From Chitinophagales bacterium (GTDB lineage: Bacteria; Bacteroidota; Bacteroidia; Chitinophagales; JADJOU01): a stretch of DNA of 64,000 nucleotides. A program made the position numbers and the translations under genes. The notes below the pieces were generated by a model. The model saw only the letters and a program-made list of their open reading frames with translations, was not told where the DNA came from and made no database searches. Shown here piece by piece: positions 9,710 through 61,757 of this stretch; within the stretch, counting starts at the first letter, position 1, and each line of letters begins with the position of its first letter. The stretch lies in assembly GCA_016787225.1 (NCBI GenBank), contig JAEUUY010000008.1, positions 62,001 through 126,000 on the forward strand. Direction: 5' to 3'.

Positions 9710-11140
9710 ATGTTATTAGAGATTAAGTCCATTTTAGCCACAGGAGTTGTAGGTAGTGAGATAGAAGTTAAAGGTTGGGTGCGAACATTTCGAAATAATC
9801 AGTTTATTTCCCTTAATGATGGCTCTACGATTCATAACTTACAAGTAGTGGTAGACTTTAATCAAACAGATGAATCCTTATTAAAGCGCATCACCACAGG
9901 TGCCGCTTTACATGTAAAGGGTCAACTAAAAGCCTCACAGGGAAGTGGTCAGGCACTTGAGTTAATCGCCAAAGATGTAAATGTTCTCGGAGATTCAGAT
10001 CCCGAGAAATATCCTATGCAACCTAAGAAGCATAGTTTAGAATTTTTGAGAGAGAATGCTCATCTACGATTTAGAACACAATTGTTTAGCGCAGTGTTTA
10101 GAGTTCGTCATCATCTGGCCATTGCTATCCATAAGTATTTTGATGAAAAGGGATTCTTCTATTTGCATGCGCCTATTATCACCGCATCTGATGCTGAAGG
10201 CGCAGGTGAAATGTTTCAGGTGACCAATTTGAATATTGAAAATTTACCTAGGAATGAATCTGGTAAAGTAGATTACTCCCAAGATTTTTTCGCAAAGAAG
10301 GCTAGCCTTAGTGTTTCTGGTCAGCTACAAGCAGAATTAGCGGCTATGGGTCTAGGCAAGGTGTATACTTTTGGACCTACGTTTCGTGCGGAGAATAGCA
10401 ATACTGCAAGACATTTAGCAGAGTTCTGGATGATAGAACCCGAAGTAGCATTTATGGATATTCACGGAGATATGGATTTGGCGGAAGGGCTTTTAAAATA
10501 TTGTATTCAATACGCTCTCGACCAATGTACAGATGATTTACAATTTTTACATGAACGACTGGAAACTGAAGAAAAGCAAAAACCTCAGCAGGAGAGAAGT
10601 CCTATGCCTTTGATAGAAAAATTGAAATTCTGTGTAGATAATGAATATGAAAGATTGACCTATACCGAAGCAATAGAAATTCTCAAAAACTCTTCCCCTA
10701 ACAAAAAAGGTAAGTTTCAGTTTCCGATCACAGATTTTGGAGCAGATCTGCAGAGCGAACATGAGCGCTATTTAGTAGAAAAGCATTTTCAAAAACCTGT
10801 CATTCTTATAAATTATCCAAAGGAAATCAAAGCCTTCTATATGCGTGTCAATGATGATGGAAAAACTGTGGCTGCTATGGATATCTTATTCCCTGGTATA
10901 GGCGAAATGGTAGGTGGTTCGCAGCGTGAAGAACGCCTTGATGTATTAATTAAAAAAATGGAAGAGTTTCACATACCTCAGCACGAGATGGAGTGGTATC
11001 TTGATACACGCAGATTTGGGACTAATCCACATGCAGGTTTCGGTTTAGGTTTTGAACGTTTGGTTATGTTTGTCACAGGTATGAGTAATATCCGAGATGT
11101 AATACCTTTCGCACGTACGCCGAGGAATTGTGAATTTTAA
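9710..11140 (+). CDS. asnS: Asparaginyl-tRNA synthetase
   Basis: A class II synthetase that charges tRNA-Asn with asparagine. An N-terminal OB fold (residues 1-115, [18 protein letters not shown]) binds the anticodon. Class II motif 2 is at [19 protein letters not shown] and motif 3 at the C-terminus ([15 protein letters not shown]). The 476-residue length is normal. The Asn type is preferred over AspRS because of the close fit to the AsnRS signature and the C-terminal [15 protein letters not shown]. The tRNA-His repeat array starts about 100 bp downstream on the same strand. Confidence 0.96.
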
Positions 11141-11155
11141 CTCAATTAATAATTA

Positions 11156-11177
11156 GTAATTAATAATTATTAATTAC
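11156..11177. promoter_or_regulatory. Perfect 22-bp palindrome overlapping the tRNA-array promoter
   Basis: The left arm GTAATTAATAA is followed directly by its exact reverse complement, giving a perfect 22-bp palindrome with no spacer. Its last three bases are the first three of the -7 box at 11175-11182. This is the position of an operator, but it could also be an AT-rich terminator-like structure for asnS. No T-tract follows, which speaks against a terminator. Confidence 0.45.
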
Positions 11178-11182
11178 ATTTG
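11175..11182 (+). promoter_or_regulatory. -7 box TACATTTG before the tRNA-His array
   Basis: Matches TAnnTTTG and is followed by GCG, as in the tRNA-Leu promoter at 24165 (TATATTTGC, then CTCC in both). The expected transcript would start near 11188 and run through all six repeat units into the tRNA-His gene. Confidence 0.6.
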
Positions 11183-11247: not shown

Positions 11248-11730
11248 GGAGGTTATAGCTCAGTTGGTTAGAGTCCCGCAGGTGCGGGATGGTTCCGAAG
11301 GGGTAAATAGCCGAATTAAAATAAAAACGGAGGTTATAGCTCAGTTGGTTAGAGTCCCGCAGGTGCGGGATGGTTCCGAGGGGTAAATAGCCAAATTAAA
11401 ATAAAAACGGAAGTTATAGCTCAGTTGGTTAGAGTCCCGCAGGTGCGGGATGGTTCCGAAGGGGTAAATAACCGAATTAAAATAAAAACGGAGGTTATAG
11501 CTCAGTTGGTTAGAGTCCCGCAGGTGCGGGATGGTTCCGAAGGGGTAAATAGCCGAATTAAAATAAAAACAGAGGTTATAGCTCAGTTGGTTAGAGTCCC
11601 GCAGGTGCGGGATGGTTCCGAGGGGTAAATAACCGAATTAAAATAAAAACGGAGGTTATAGCTCAGTTGGTTAGAGTCCCGCAGGTGCGGGATGGTTCCG
11701 AAGGGTAAATAGCCGGATTAAAATAAAAAC
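11248..11730 (+). repeat. Six tandem tRNA-His-derived units with hairpin-replaced anticodon arm
   Basis: Units start at 11248, 11329, 11409, 11490, 11571 and 11651 and are 81, 80, 81, 81, 80 and 80 bp long, nearly identical. Each begins with bases -1 to about 24 of the downstream tRNA-His (acceptor 5' strand and D-arm, GGAGGTTATAGCTCAG...GAG). It then has a perfect 7-bp hairpin TCCCGCA-GG-TGCGGGA in place of the 5' anticodon stem and loop start. It rejoins the tRNA sequence at TGGTTCCGA(A)GGG and ends with a linker around TAAATAGCCGAATTAAAAT. The T-arm and 3' acceptor strand are missing. The linker word TAGCC or TAACC can pair with GGTTA of the unit's own start, which would give a short acceptor-like stem. 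No protein function is suggested: the open frame across it is a by-product of the repeat. Confidence 0.9.
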
Positions 11731-11805
11731 GGAGGTTATAGCTCAGTTGGTTAGAGCATCGGATTGTGGTTCCGAGGGTCGTGGGTTCGAGCCCCATTAA
11801 TCTCC
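11731..11805 (+). tRNA. tRNA-His (GTG)
   Basis: A full cloverleaf is readable. The acceptor GAGGTTA pairs with TAATCTC, the D-arm is GCTC/GAGC, the anticodon stem is TCGGA/TCCGA with loop TTGTGGT (anticodon GTG), and the T-arm contains GGTTCGAGCCC. The His-specific extra base G-1 is encoded at 11731 and can face C73 at 11805. CCA is not encoded. It is the last element of the tandem array and the only complete tRNA in it. Confidence 0.96.
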
Positions 11806-11849
11806 CTTCTTTTCTCTTTTTTACAAGGCTCATAGGATTTGAAATTTTT

Positions 11850-56420: not shown

Positions 56421-56450
56421 ATGTAGCGAAATCAATTTAATTGTATACTA

Positions 56451-56954
56451 ATGATAAATAATGAAGAATTTAATTTCATAACTGAAAAAATGATGATTGA
56501 TGGATTAGACTATCATTACAATAACTATATTGAACACAGGGAATCTCTTCATTATTATATAAAAGATATGGCAATTGAAAAGCTTGACTTCAATCGACAA
56601 AAATTTTATTCAATGAGACATGAAGTGGTATCATATATAAATAGAATGGGACAATTTAAGGCTTTTGCAGATTATCATAATAAAAGTGAATTATTACCCA
56701 CTATTTTAAAGTTTATGCCCTTAAGAGATAAAATAACTGCTCACAGAGCGATTGATAAACCTCGCAAAAATGACAATGTACCAAGTGTAATAATGGCAAA
56801 TAATCAAGTCCATGGACCAGTTGTTGCATTGTGGGGTGGTAATAGATTTATATTACAATATAAAACTGATAAAGGAGATTTATTGAATTTCGATCTAATT
56901 GAAGAGCATCAAAAGATTTATAAAGAAGCTTTACTCTTATTTAATGATATATAG
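56451..56954 (+). CDS. Uncharacterised protein with R-x5-H motif
   Basis: A 167-residue cytosolic protein that I do not recognise. It is rich in His, Tyr and Asn and mostly helical in its first 110 residues. A motif RDKITAH near residue 92 has the R-x4-6-H spacing of HEPN ribonucleases, in a helical context (LRDKITAHRAID). The C-terminal part looks like beta strands. It has no partner gene next to it and lies between two housekeeping genes, so HEPN membership is only a suggestion. Confidence 0.6.
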   Translation: MINNEEFNFITEKMMIDGLDYHYNNYIEHRESLHYYIKDMAIEKLDFNRQKFYSMRHEVVSYINRMGQFKAFADYHNKSELLPTILKFMPLRDKITAHRAIDKPRKNDNVPSVIMANNQVHGPVVALWGGNRFILQYKTDKGDLLNFDLIEEHQKIYKEALLLFNDI

Positions 56955-57077
56955 ATTTTTAATTTGTCACGAATTTACATACTCCTAGAAAAACATGTTG
57001 TTTCTGAAAATGTTTAAAAAAAAATATCAAGTGGATAAACTTTAGATTGTTATTAAAATTCTACAATTTTTACACCA

Positions 57078-57791
57078 ATGAAACCCATTATTACCCTTTT
57101 CGAAGATGATTATTACTTAGCAGTAGATAAGCCTAGTGGGGTGCTATCAATTCCTCCCCGTGCAGGGCAAGAAGCCGATGTATTTTCTTTTTTCAAAACG
57201 AAGTATGAAGACTTGCGTTTAGTTCATCGAATAGATAAGGAAACATCAGGTGTCTTGATTTTTGCGAAAGGAGAAGAAGCTCAACGCGCCTTGTCCATGT
57301 TATTCGAAGATCATTCTATCTTCAAAGAATATAAGGCCATCGTGTCGGGAATCCCCAAGGAAGCTGAAGGCACCATAGAAAACTATATAGACGAACACCC
57401 CAATATAAAAGGAACCTATCGAATCGCTTATCAAGGTAAAGGAAAAATAGCCATATCACATTATCAGGTAGTAGAGACATATAAACGACATAGTTTACTC
57501 GCCTTTCAGATAGAGACTGGTCGTACGCATCAAATAAGAGTACACTCACAGTTTTTAGGTTGTCCATTGGCTTATGACCCTATATATAATCCTCAAAACG
57601 GAATTTTTCTCTCTCGATTTATCAAGAATTATAAAGGCAAGGAGGATGAGCGGTCTATCATCCAACGATTATCACTCCATGCGGAAATTCTTAGATTCTA
57701 CCACCCATTTACCAATGAAGTGGTAGATATTCAATCTCCACTACCTAAAGATTTTCAGAAGGCTTTGGAGATACTGAGAAAGTATAGTTGA
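57078..57791 (+). CDS. RluA-family pseudouridine synthase
   Basis: A 237-residue enzyme that isomerises uridine in RNA. The catalytic motif is HRIDKETSG (Asp53 region), with the family pattern VDKPSGVLSIP near the start and GRTHQIRVH near residue 147. There is no N-terminal S4 domain, so it resembles RluA or TruC rather than RluD. The RNA target is not determined. Confidence 0.9.
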   Translation: MKPIITLFEDDYYLAVDKPSGVLSIPPRAGQEADVFSFFKTKYEDLRLVHRIDKETSGVLIFAKGEEAQRALSMLFEDHSIFKEYKAIVSGIPKEAEGTIENYIDEHPNIKGTYRIAYQGKGKIAISHYQVVETYKRHSLLAFQIETGRTHQIRVHSQFLGCPLAYDPIYNPQNGIFLSRFIKNYKGKEDERSIIQRLSLHAEILRFYHPFTNEVVDIQSPLPKDFQKALEILRKYS

Positions 57792-60590: not shown

Positions 60591-60642
60591 ATTATGAAAG
60601 AAATAAAAGCTATATTCTTCCCTCTCTAGTGCGAGTTTGTAA

Positions 60643-60773
60643 CCCCGCTATCGGTAGTCTGCGATTAAATGCTAGTGCACGAGTTCGGCAGCGTTTGGCG
60701 AAGTTTTTAACTTCGTCAGTGCGTTAGTAAATTTGTAATTTACAAAAGAAAAGCTATTTTTGTAACTATAAAA
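60643..60773 (+). repeat. RAYT-associated palindromic leader, copy 1
   Basis: The block begins with CCCCGCTATCGG (decayed form of the palindrome CCGCTAGCGG). It contains GAAGTTTTTAACTTC (60700-60714) and the 17-bp palindrome GTAAATTTGTAATTTAC (60727-60743), then a -7 box TATTTTTG (60755-60762). The same blocks occur before copies 2 and 3 of the transposase. Confidence 0.8.
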
Positions 60774-61097
60774 ATGAGCACAGGATACAAGATTTTAGAC
60801 CAGAATGCATTATTCTATTTGACGTTCCAGATAGTAGATTGGGTAGATATATTTACACGAAAAATTTATAAAGATATTGTTATAGAAAGTTTCAGTTATT
60901 GTATGGAGCATAAGGGATTGAACTTATATGCTTATGTCATCATGTCTAATCATATTCATTTGATAGCTAGTGCTAGAGAAGGATTTGCATTGAGTGATAT
61001 CATCAGAGATTTCAAGAAGCATACTGCTAAACGATTTTTAGAAGAAATAAGCAAGCCAACAGAAAGTAGAAATGACCCCGCTAGCGGTAGTCTGTGA
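60774..61097 (+). pseudogene. REP-associated tyrosine transposase (RAYT), copy 1, 3' truncated
   Basis: The first 100 codons encode the N-terminal half of a Y1/IS200-like transposase of the RAYT type, with the HUH metal motif in SNHIHLIASA. Similarity to copy 2 stops sharply at 61075/61076, where a new palindromic leader begins; the last seven residues (PASGSL and neighbours) are read from that leader. The catalytic Tyr half is missing, so this copy is inactive. Confidence 0.88.
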
Positions 61098-61208
61098 TTA
61101 ATTGCTAGTGCACGAGTTCTGCAGCGTTAGGCGAAGTTTGCAACTTCGTCTAAGTGTTAGTAAATTTGTAATTTACAAAATAAAAAAGCTAATTTTGTAA
61201 CGATAAAG
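61076..61208 (+). repeat. RAYT-associated palindromic leader, copy 2
   Basis: Starts with CC and the perfect palindrome CCGCTAGCGG (61078-61087), then GAAGTTTGCAACTTC (61133-61147) and GTAAATTTGTAATTTAC (61160-61176). It joins directly to the truncated end of transposase copy 1. Confidence 0.82.
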
Positions 61209-61757
61209 ATGAGCACAGGATACAAGATTTTAGACCAGAATGCATTGTTTTAATTGACGTTTCAGATAGTAGATTGGGTGGATATTTTTACACGAAAAAT
61301 TTATAAAGATATTGTTATTGATAGCTTCTTGTATTGTATGTAGCATAAAGGATTGGATTTATACGCTTATGTAATTATGTCGAATCATATTCATTTGATA
61401 GCTAGTGCTAGAGAAGGATTTGCATTGAGTGATATCATCAGAGATTTCAAGAAGCATACTGCTAAGCAATTTTTAGAAGAAATAAACAAGCCAACTGAAA
61501 GTAGAAATGATTGGATGTTAAAACGATTTGAATTCGCTGCTAAAAGGCACAAAAGAAACAGTGAGTTTCAAATATGGACGCACGAGAATCATGCTGTGGA
61601 GCATGTTTCGAATAAGTTTATTGATCAGAAACTGAATTATATTCATGAAAATCCAGTAAGAGCAGGTATCGTATATAAAGCAGAAGACTATATGTATAGC
61701 AGTGCGTCGAACTATATTTTAGGAGAAGGAATTATAAATGTCAAGATATTGGAATGA
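61209..61757 (+). pseudogene. RAYT transposase, copy 2, with two in-frame stops
   Basis: Reading from the ATG at 61209, codon 15 is TAA (61251-61253; a Tyr codon in copies 1 and 3) and codon 45 is TAG (61341-61343; Glu in copy 1). The rest is intact: the HUH motif SNHIHL and the C-terminal half with LNYIHENPVRAGIV, which holds the likely nucleophile Tyr. The stop overlaps the start of the following RHS frame (ATGA). A downstream TTG at 61353 could in principle start a shortened protein. Confidence 0.88.

Follow-up and report, generated by a model that had tools for sequence, protein, structure and literature searches.

What produced the row of broken tRNA copies that precedes the single tRNA-His gene in a 64-kb stretch of DNA from a Chitinophagales bacterium (hereafter the window; its genome is G000)? 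The intact gene (anticodon GTG) lies at 11731..11806 on the + strand, with an ARAGORN span of 11732-11806 and an encoded extra 5' G at 11731, and matches Rfam RF00005 at 65.3 bits. Directly before it, on the same strand, six tandem units fill 11248-11730: unit 1 at 11248..11328 (81 bp, palindrome 11274-11289), unit 2 at 11329..11408 (80 bp, palindrome 11355-11370), unit 3 at 11409..11489 (81 bp, palindrome 11435-11450), unit 4 at 11490..11570 (81 bp, palindrome 11516-11531), unit 5 at 11571..11650 (80 bp, palindrome 11597-11612) and unit 6 at 11651..11730 (80 bp, palindrome 11677-11692). Every unit consists of tRNA-His positions 1-24, the palindrome TCCCGCAGGTGCGGGA, tRNA-His again from position 35 to about 47, and finally an A-rich linker, which in units 3 and 5 is the TAACC variant. 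The palindrome thus stands in for positions 25-34, and homology is regained at position 35 with the TG of GTG. The expected number of TCCCG-N6-CGGGA occurrences in shuffled sequence is 0.

A preliminary description, made from the letters of this DNA, had read the units as near-identical derivatives of tRNA-His that could not work as tRNAs, with a palindrome replacing the 5' anticodon arm, homology returning inside the anticodon, and the T-arm and 3' acceptor lost to a linker, and on all of these points our analysis agrees. Units lack an anticodon loop, a T-arm and a 3' acceptor, and neither ARAGORN nor Rfam calls any of them as a tRNA, the real tRNA-His being the sole call. Units 1 and 4 are exactly the same but the others carry private differences, which makes a pure assembly duplication unlikely; the exact number of six is not certain if the assembly used short reads. 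The array has asnS (9710-11140) upstream and a gene resembling those for secreted proteins downstream. A candidate Bacteroidota -7 promoter element, TACATTTG, was placed 5' of the array at 11175..11182 (+ strand); the consensus of this element is TAnnTTTG. A similar TANNTTTG/TTTGCANTCC stretch lies 5' of tRNA-His in two congeners (G001 and G004).

One way to view the array is as RNA. Transcribed in the leader of the tRNA, the hairpin units would serve as decoys (for RNase P, HisRS, tRNA-modifying enzymes or a nuclease) or as regulatory RNAs, and their copy number would tune the supply or protection of the tRNA; the position of the array, between a plausible promoter and tRNA-His, is consistent with this. 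The preliminary description had also listed, as possible roles, a source of small RNAs and a leader of variable copy number that regulates tRNA-His. Folding speaks for a role as RNA as well. Unit 1 is predicted to form one long rod-like hairpin (MFE -28.1 kcal/mol, z -4.5; z -4.1 for unit 5), in which the 5' acceptor strand pairs with the linker, the D-stem strand with the GGGG that follows and UUGG with CCGA, leaving the palindrome at the tip. The preliminary description had held possible a compact, tRNA-like fold in which the linker TAGCC or TAACC pairs with GGTTA of the acceptor: folding recovered both the pairing and the compactness, and the predicted shape is a rod instead of that of a tRNA. 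The same rod is predicted for most of the related units found upstream of tRNA-Asn genes (the A units described below). In these the D-loop UUGGUUA pairs with UAAUCAG, which starts at tRNA position 36, and this pairing may explain the point at which tRNA sequence resumes. Linker pairing is locus-specific when whole units are folded, with a mean of -26.0 for units with their own linkers and -25.0 after linkers were swapped between loci (1/200); the test of acceptor pairing on its own with swapped linkers was negative. The innermost variable pair of the palindrome (6-11) covaries in the alignment (C-G 14, U-A 13), and most of its other pairs are invariant and hence uninformative on covariation. 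Against a role as RNA, however, the units have none of the parts on which RNase P, synthetases or anticodon nucleases depend (anticodon loop, T-arm and 3' acceptor). A decoy for an anticodon nuclease, considered in view of the junction at 34/35 and the GUN anticodons, was rejected on the same ground, the units having no loop. Arrays are also lacking at most tRNA-Asn loci of relatives and at over half of the loci with a nuclease-bearing downstream copy (the B loci described below) in the contig set, and we consider a functional RNA an unlikely account of the array.

The array is one case of a wider arrangement. When one unit was used as query against the whole genome, a dead copy of tRNA-Asn turned up with this palindrome at the identical tRNA position; a small gene lies between that copy and the real tRNA-Asn. 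Scanning for GTTAGAG together with the palindrome, with one genome sampled per species, returned at least 120 stretches, nearly all of them from Bacteroidota (Flavobacteriales, Cytophagales, Sphingobacteriales, Chitinophagales and Bacteroidales) and nearly all of them tRNA-Asn loci. The search in other Bacteroidota that the preliminary description had proposed showed the palindrome site to recur, with the His type confined to the genus: no further genome among 299 of the order has a His-type array. The phylum-wide structure at tRNA-Asn, the involvement of other tRNAs of the same genome and the tie to the GIY-YIG family all go beyond that description.

Two forms were distinguished at tRNA-Asn. 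In the A form, as at the tRNA-His of the window, tandem units of 72-110 bp lie 5' of the real tRNA, each in the order leader, tRNA 1-24, palindrome, tRNA 35-47 and linker. In the B form, 3' of the real tRNA, there is a small GIY-YIG gene and then the tRNA 3' half with a terminator; the 5' half of the B copy is the in-frame 3' end of the gene, whose start precedes the palindrome by a near-constant distance of about 283 bases and whose frame is always the same. Dead-copy palindromes across the tRNA loci measure 16-18 bp. Those of A units vary in sequence and keep their pairing (pair 6-11 is C-G in 30 and T-A in 24, n=57), and B copies often have further palindromes in the T-arm, with the 3' half intact in some. 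Third-position changes number 37 of 92 in the tRNA-derived codons of B copies versus 2 of 34 in A copies, and stop codons fall within the palindrome in 1 of 65 B copies versus 8 of 57 A copies. To judge from these codon patterns, B copies are coding and A copies are not. In the contig set an A array is present at 18 of 40 B loci, so that more than half of them have none and the A form is not obligatory. In a congener of the window's genome (G003) the intact Asn GIY-YIG ORF encodes 101 aa, and the tRNA-Asn 5' half together with the palindrome supplies the codons for its C-terminal 12 residues, LAQLVRVPHVRD, the stop codon coming from the tRNA sequence 3' of the palindrome; the corresponding ORF is open in the window's genome too.

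Nor is the nuclease family confined to tRNA-Asn. In the window's genome its genes lie directly 3' of tRNA-Asn, Phe, Val, Met and Lys, one of them broken, and the neighbours of the Asn, Phe, Val and Lys tRNAs score above the PF01541 cut-off. Among relatives, about 40 of 103 distinct family matches directly follow a tRNA of the same strand, in most cases after a gap of about 35-75 bp, and at least 11 tRNA types are followed in this way (Met, Phe, Val, Pro, Asn, Glu, Asp, Ala, Lys, Arg and Leu). The tRNA-linked proteins are of about 85-105 aa, and their genes lie outside introns and inteins, adjoining the presumed target gene. The 3' end of the nuclease's own tRNA is repeated after the gene in 27 of 38 cases, versus 9 of 1276 in controls that used other tRNA types, and palindromes occur 3' of the nuclease in 13 of 38 (0.2 expected). 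Six pairs of nuclease genes gave pN/pS of 0.13-0.34, about 0.2, which indicates purifying selection. At the tRNA-Met of the window's genome (G000:C21, ~56430-57160; L186, L214 and L215), three pseudo-tRNA-Met units of ~100 bp, with two palindromes each (TCCCGAT..ATCGGGA), lie upstream, and a broken GIY-YIG gene and a dead Met copy lie downstream.

A tree of 109 nuclease proteins required 18 changes of tRNA label, compared with 37.5 when labels were shuffled and with none of 200 shuffles as low. A subfamily tends to stay with a single tRNA isoacceptor: the cleanest groups are those of Asn, Phe, Glu and Asp, Met and Val are split, and many forks are unresolved because the alignment is short (88 columns). 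The Asn part of the tree partly tracks the bacterial orders, so much of the inheritance may be vertical. The 21 GIY-YIG proteins that never lie next to a tRNA make up a separate clade. We rejected an origin in phages or plasmids, since tblastn found no phage or plasmid copies of the nuclease and the two IMG/VR pattern matches fell in coding sequence that has no tRNA context. Comparison with PHROG and NCBIfam profiles yielded no specific assignment for the nucleases, with no PHROG match at all. Membership of a known anti-phage defence system was also rejected, no profile match with partners having been found for the Asn, Phe and Val types: among defence-protein profiles the Asn and Phe nucleases had no match and the Val type had weak partial matches to the GIY domain only.

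Copy number and occupancy differ between close relatives. Within the genus the number of His units is 6 in the window's genome, 1 in G001 and 0 in both G003 and G004, in line with the variable copy number suggested by the preliminary description, and no nuclease gene is found at tRNA-His in the window's genome or in the congeners read. Dead copies lie only downstream of tRNA-His in G003, and G004 has none. The downstream dead copies of G001 (L192) and G003 (L191) have palindromes CCTGCCTG..CAGACAGG and TCCCGCACGTGCGGGA, with no nuclease ORF left at either locus. Within one genus, the tRNA-Asn locus is empty in G023 and is occupied in G456 by four A units, a B copy and the nuclease gene. At L348 (G456), tRNA-Asn ends in an intrinsic terminator, TCCCGCATCGTGCGGGATTTTTTT, that looks like the palindrome of the pseudo-tRNAs, and terminator hairpins may be where the palindromes came from. 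The element at tRNA-Phe is present in the window's genome and absent from G002-G004, and G001 has dead copies there without a nuclease gene. A contig of G002 matches a Saprospirales MAG locus (L087), which would put the genus in the Saprospirales/Chitinophagales group.

Such variation within a genus would also be expected of neutral debris, that is, of a slipped duplication of tRNA-His that gained a palindrome of a common mobile type and expanded as a functionless satellite, and other TCCCG..CGGGA palindromes do occur in dispersed repeats of this genome away from tRNAs. On that account, however, one would not expect the same site to be used at both Asn and His, nor the recurrence across the phylum, the coding use in B copies, the link to a nuclease or the paired linkers, and we regard it as improbable.

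Further repeats of the same genome were recorded. A dispersed REP-like repeat of ~100 bp, with the centre (TTGCAA/TTTCAA)TCCCGTACGTACGGGATTG, has at least 7 copies away from tRNAs (L032, L033, L040 and L043-L046). A palindrome, TCCCGCTCGTGCGGGA, lies ~20 bp from the 3' end of tRNA-Ala(GGC) (L042, G000:C11:269078). Within the window, at 60642-61510, a 435-bp unit is present in two tandem copies that are ~90% alike.

Taking these results together, we think it probable that the His array represents the upstream part of a homing-like GIY-YIG element seated at a tRNA gene, and one instance of a Bacteroidota-wide pattern in which an intact gene is left with dead copies to either side; cleavage by the nuclease, mobility of the element and a function for the hairpins are what we infer. 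The nuclease would cut its own tRNA gene in chromosomes without the element, and repair of the break from an occupied copy would spread the nuclease and leave duplicated tRNA segments behind. The palindromes would persist because they kill the extra tRNA copies, the leftover 5' half being locked in its own hairpin, where it would be no rival to the essential tRNA in folding, for RNase P or in modification and could not restore a clean tRNA by recombination. The number of tandem units would then rise and fall through unequal recombination. At the tRNA-His of the window, the upstream array would be what remains, the nuclease gene having been lost or a related nuclease having acted in trans. Most likely the dead 5' halves are neutralised copies, with roles as decoy or antidote possible, and the palindromes could stay perfect through a mechanism of replication and not through selection. 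The preliminary description was right to count among its possibilities a selfish palindrome associated with the tRNA that it targets, with the selfish character putative.

Another way to explain the dead copies is protection at the level of DNA, where uncuttable units would titrate a nuclease that binds tRNA genes, or where poisoned repeats would make deletion of the element kill an essential tRNA. In its favour, the palindrome replaces the 5' anticodon-arm sequence in every extra copy and never in the real gene, the T-arm of many B copies is broken in the same manner, and the tRNA is essential. This account, however, leaves the locus-specific pairing of linker and acceptor, with its G-U pairs, unexplained, and the intact 3' half of some B copies means that clean excision is possible there. 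We hold it to be distinctly unlikely. Immunity through recoding of the real tRNA is not supported. The anticodon arms of tRNA-Asn are identical in the empty (G023) and occupied (G456) loci, and, although a base-pair swap in tRNA-Phe gives AAGGA..TCCTT in the window's genome versus ATGGA..TCCAT in four congeners, the occupied Phe locus L218 has ATGGA. With no sequence-based immunity found at occupied Asn or Phe alleles, classical homing is not demonstrated.

Several known systems share features with the homing-like elements that we favour. REP/BIME sequences are short palindromes repeated in the genome and accompanied by RAYT transposases, whereas the palindromes here sit at fixed sites of tRNA copies, have tRNA sequence and no constant tetranucleotide at their flanks, and are linked to GIY-YIG genes. 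The tyrT repeats of E. coli (rtT) are tandem units that contain a 3' piece of tRNA-Tyr and lie downstream; here, in contrast, the 5' half and the palindrome lie upstream, and the copies that bear nucleases lie downstream at other tRNAs. tRNA genes are the targets of group I introns and integrative elements, which restore the tRNA and in some cases use the anticodon loop, but here there is no intron or integrase, nothing interrupts the real tRNA and the element measures ~400 bp. The nearest solved structures by sequence are small GIY-YIG proteins of the UPF0213 group (PDB 1zg2 and 1ywl), which are of similar length and only weakly similar to the tRNA-linked nucleases (E 0.004 and 0.12); the clade of 21 proteins never found next to a tRNA bears on this comparison.

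By analogy, the nearest precedent is phage SegB, which cuts inside tRNA genes, co-localises with tRNAs without isotype preference, and drives tandem repeats of tRNA and truncated segB through microhomology of the tRNA 5' end with the segB 3' end (PMC13096335). With SegB and other free-standing phage GIY-YIG homing endonucleases (PMC13096335, PMC2988022) the Bacteroidota family shares a nuclease gene that adjoins tRNA genes. Unlike SegB, however, the family is chromosomal and phylum-wide with no phage match by tblastn, its proteins are of about 85-105 aa without a second Pfam domain, its subfamilies follow one tRNA type, its nuclease 3' end is a tRNA 5' half, and it has arrays of pseudo-tRNAs broken by palindromes. 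Free-standing GIY-YIG homing endonucleases beside tRNAs are thus known already, and the unusual parts are the isoacceptor-specific subfamilies, the tRNA-encoded tail of the nuclease and the palindrome-capped pseudo-tRNA arrays. Our search of the open PMC literature, with subscription papers and preprints outside its scope, found no account of such a system in Bacteroidota. Tentatively, and with some doubt, we suggest that these parts may define a new class of mobile element: tRNA-gene-specific GIY-YIG elements with protective, palindrome-capped pseudo-tRNA hairpins (as antidote, decoy or insulator) and a nuclease C-terminus that part of the target tRNA gene encodes.

If the homing-like reading is true, individual Bacteroidota tRNA genes, several of them in all, can harbour a small nuclease element of their own, with arrays of dead copies as its footprint, and this would account for many tRNA-like repeats that lack annotation and for many small GIY-YIG genes. 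Chromosomal homing-like elements would then be targeting essential tRNA genes, with the nuclease and its target coevolving as a pair for each tRNA, and the dependence of the host on that tRNA would be directly testable against the element. The family could also give small nucleases with differing specificities for tRNA genes.
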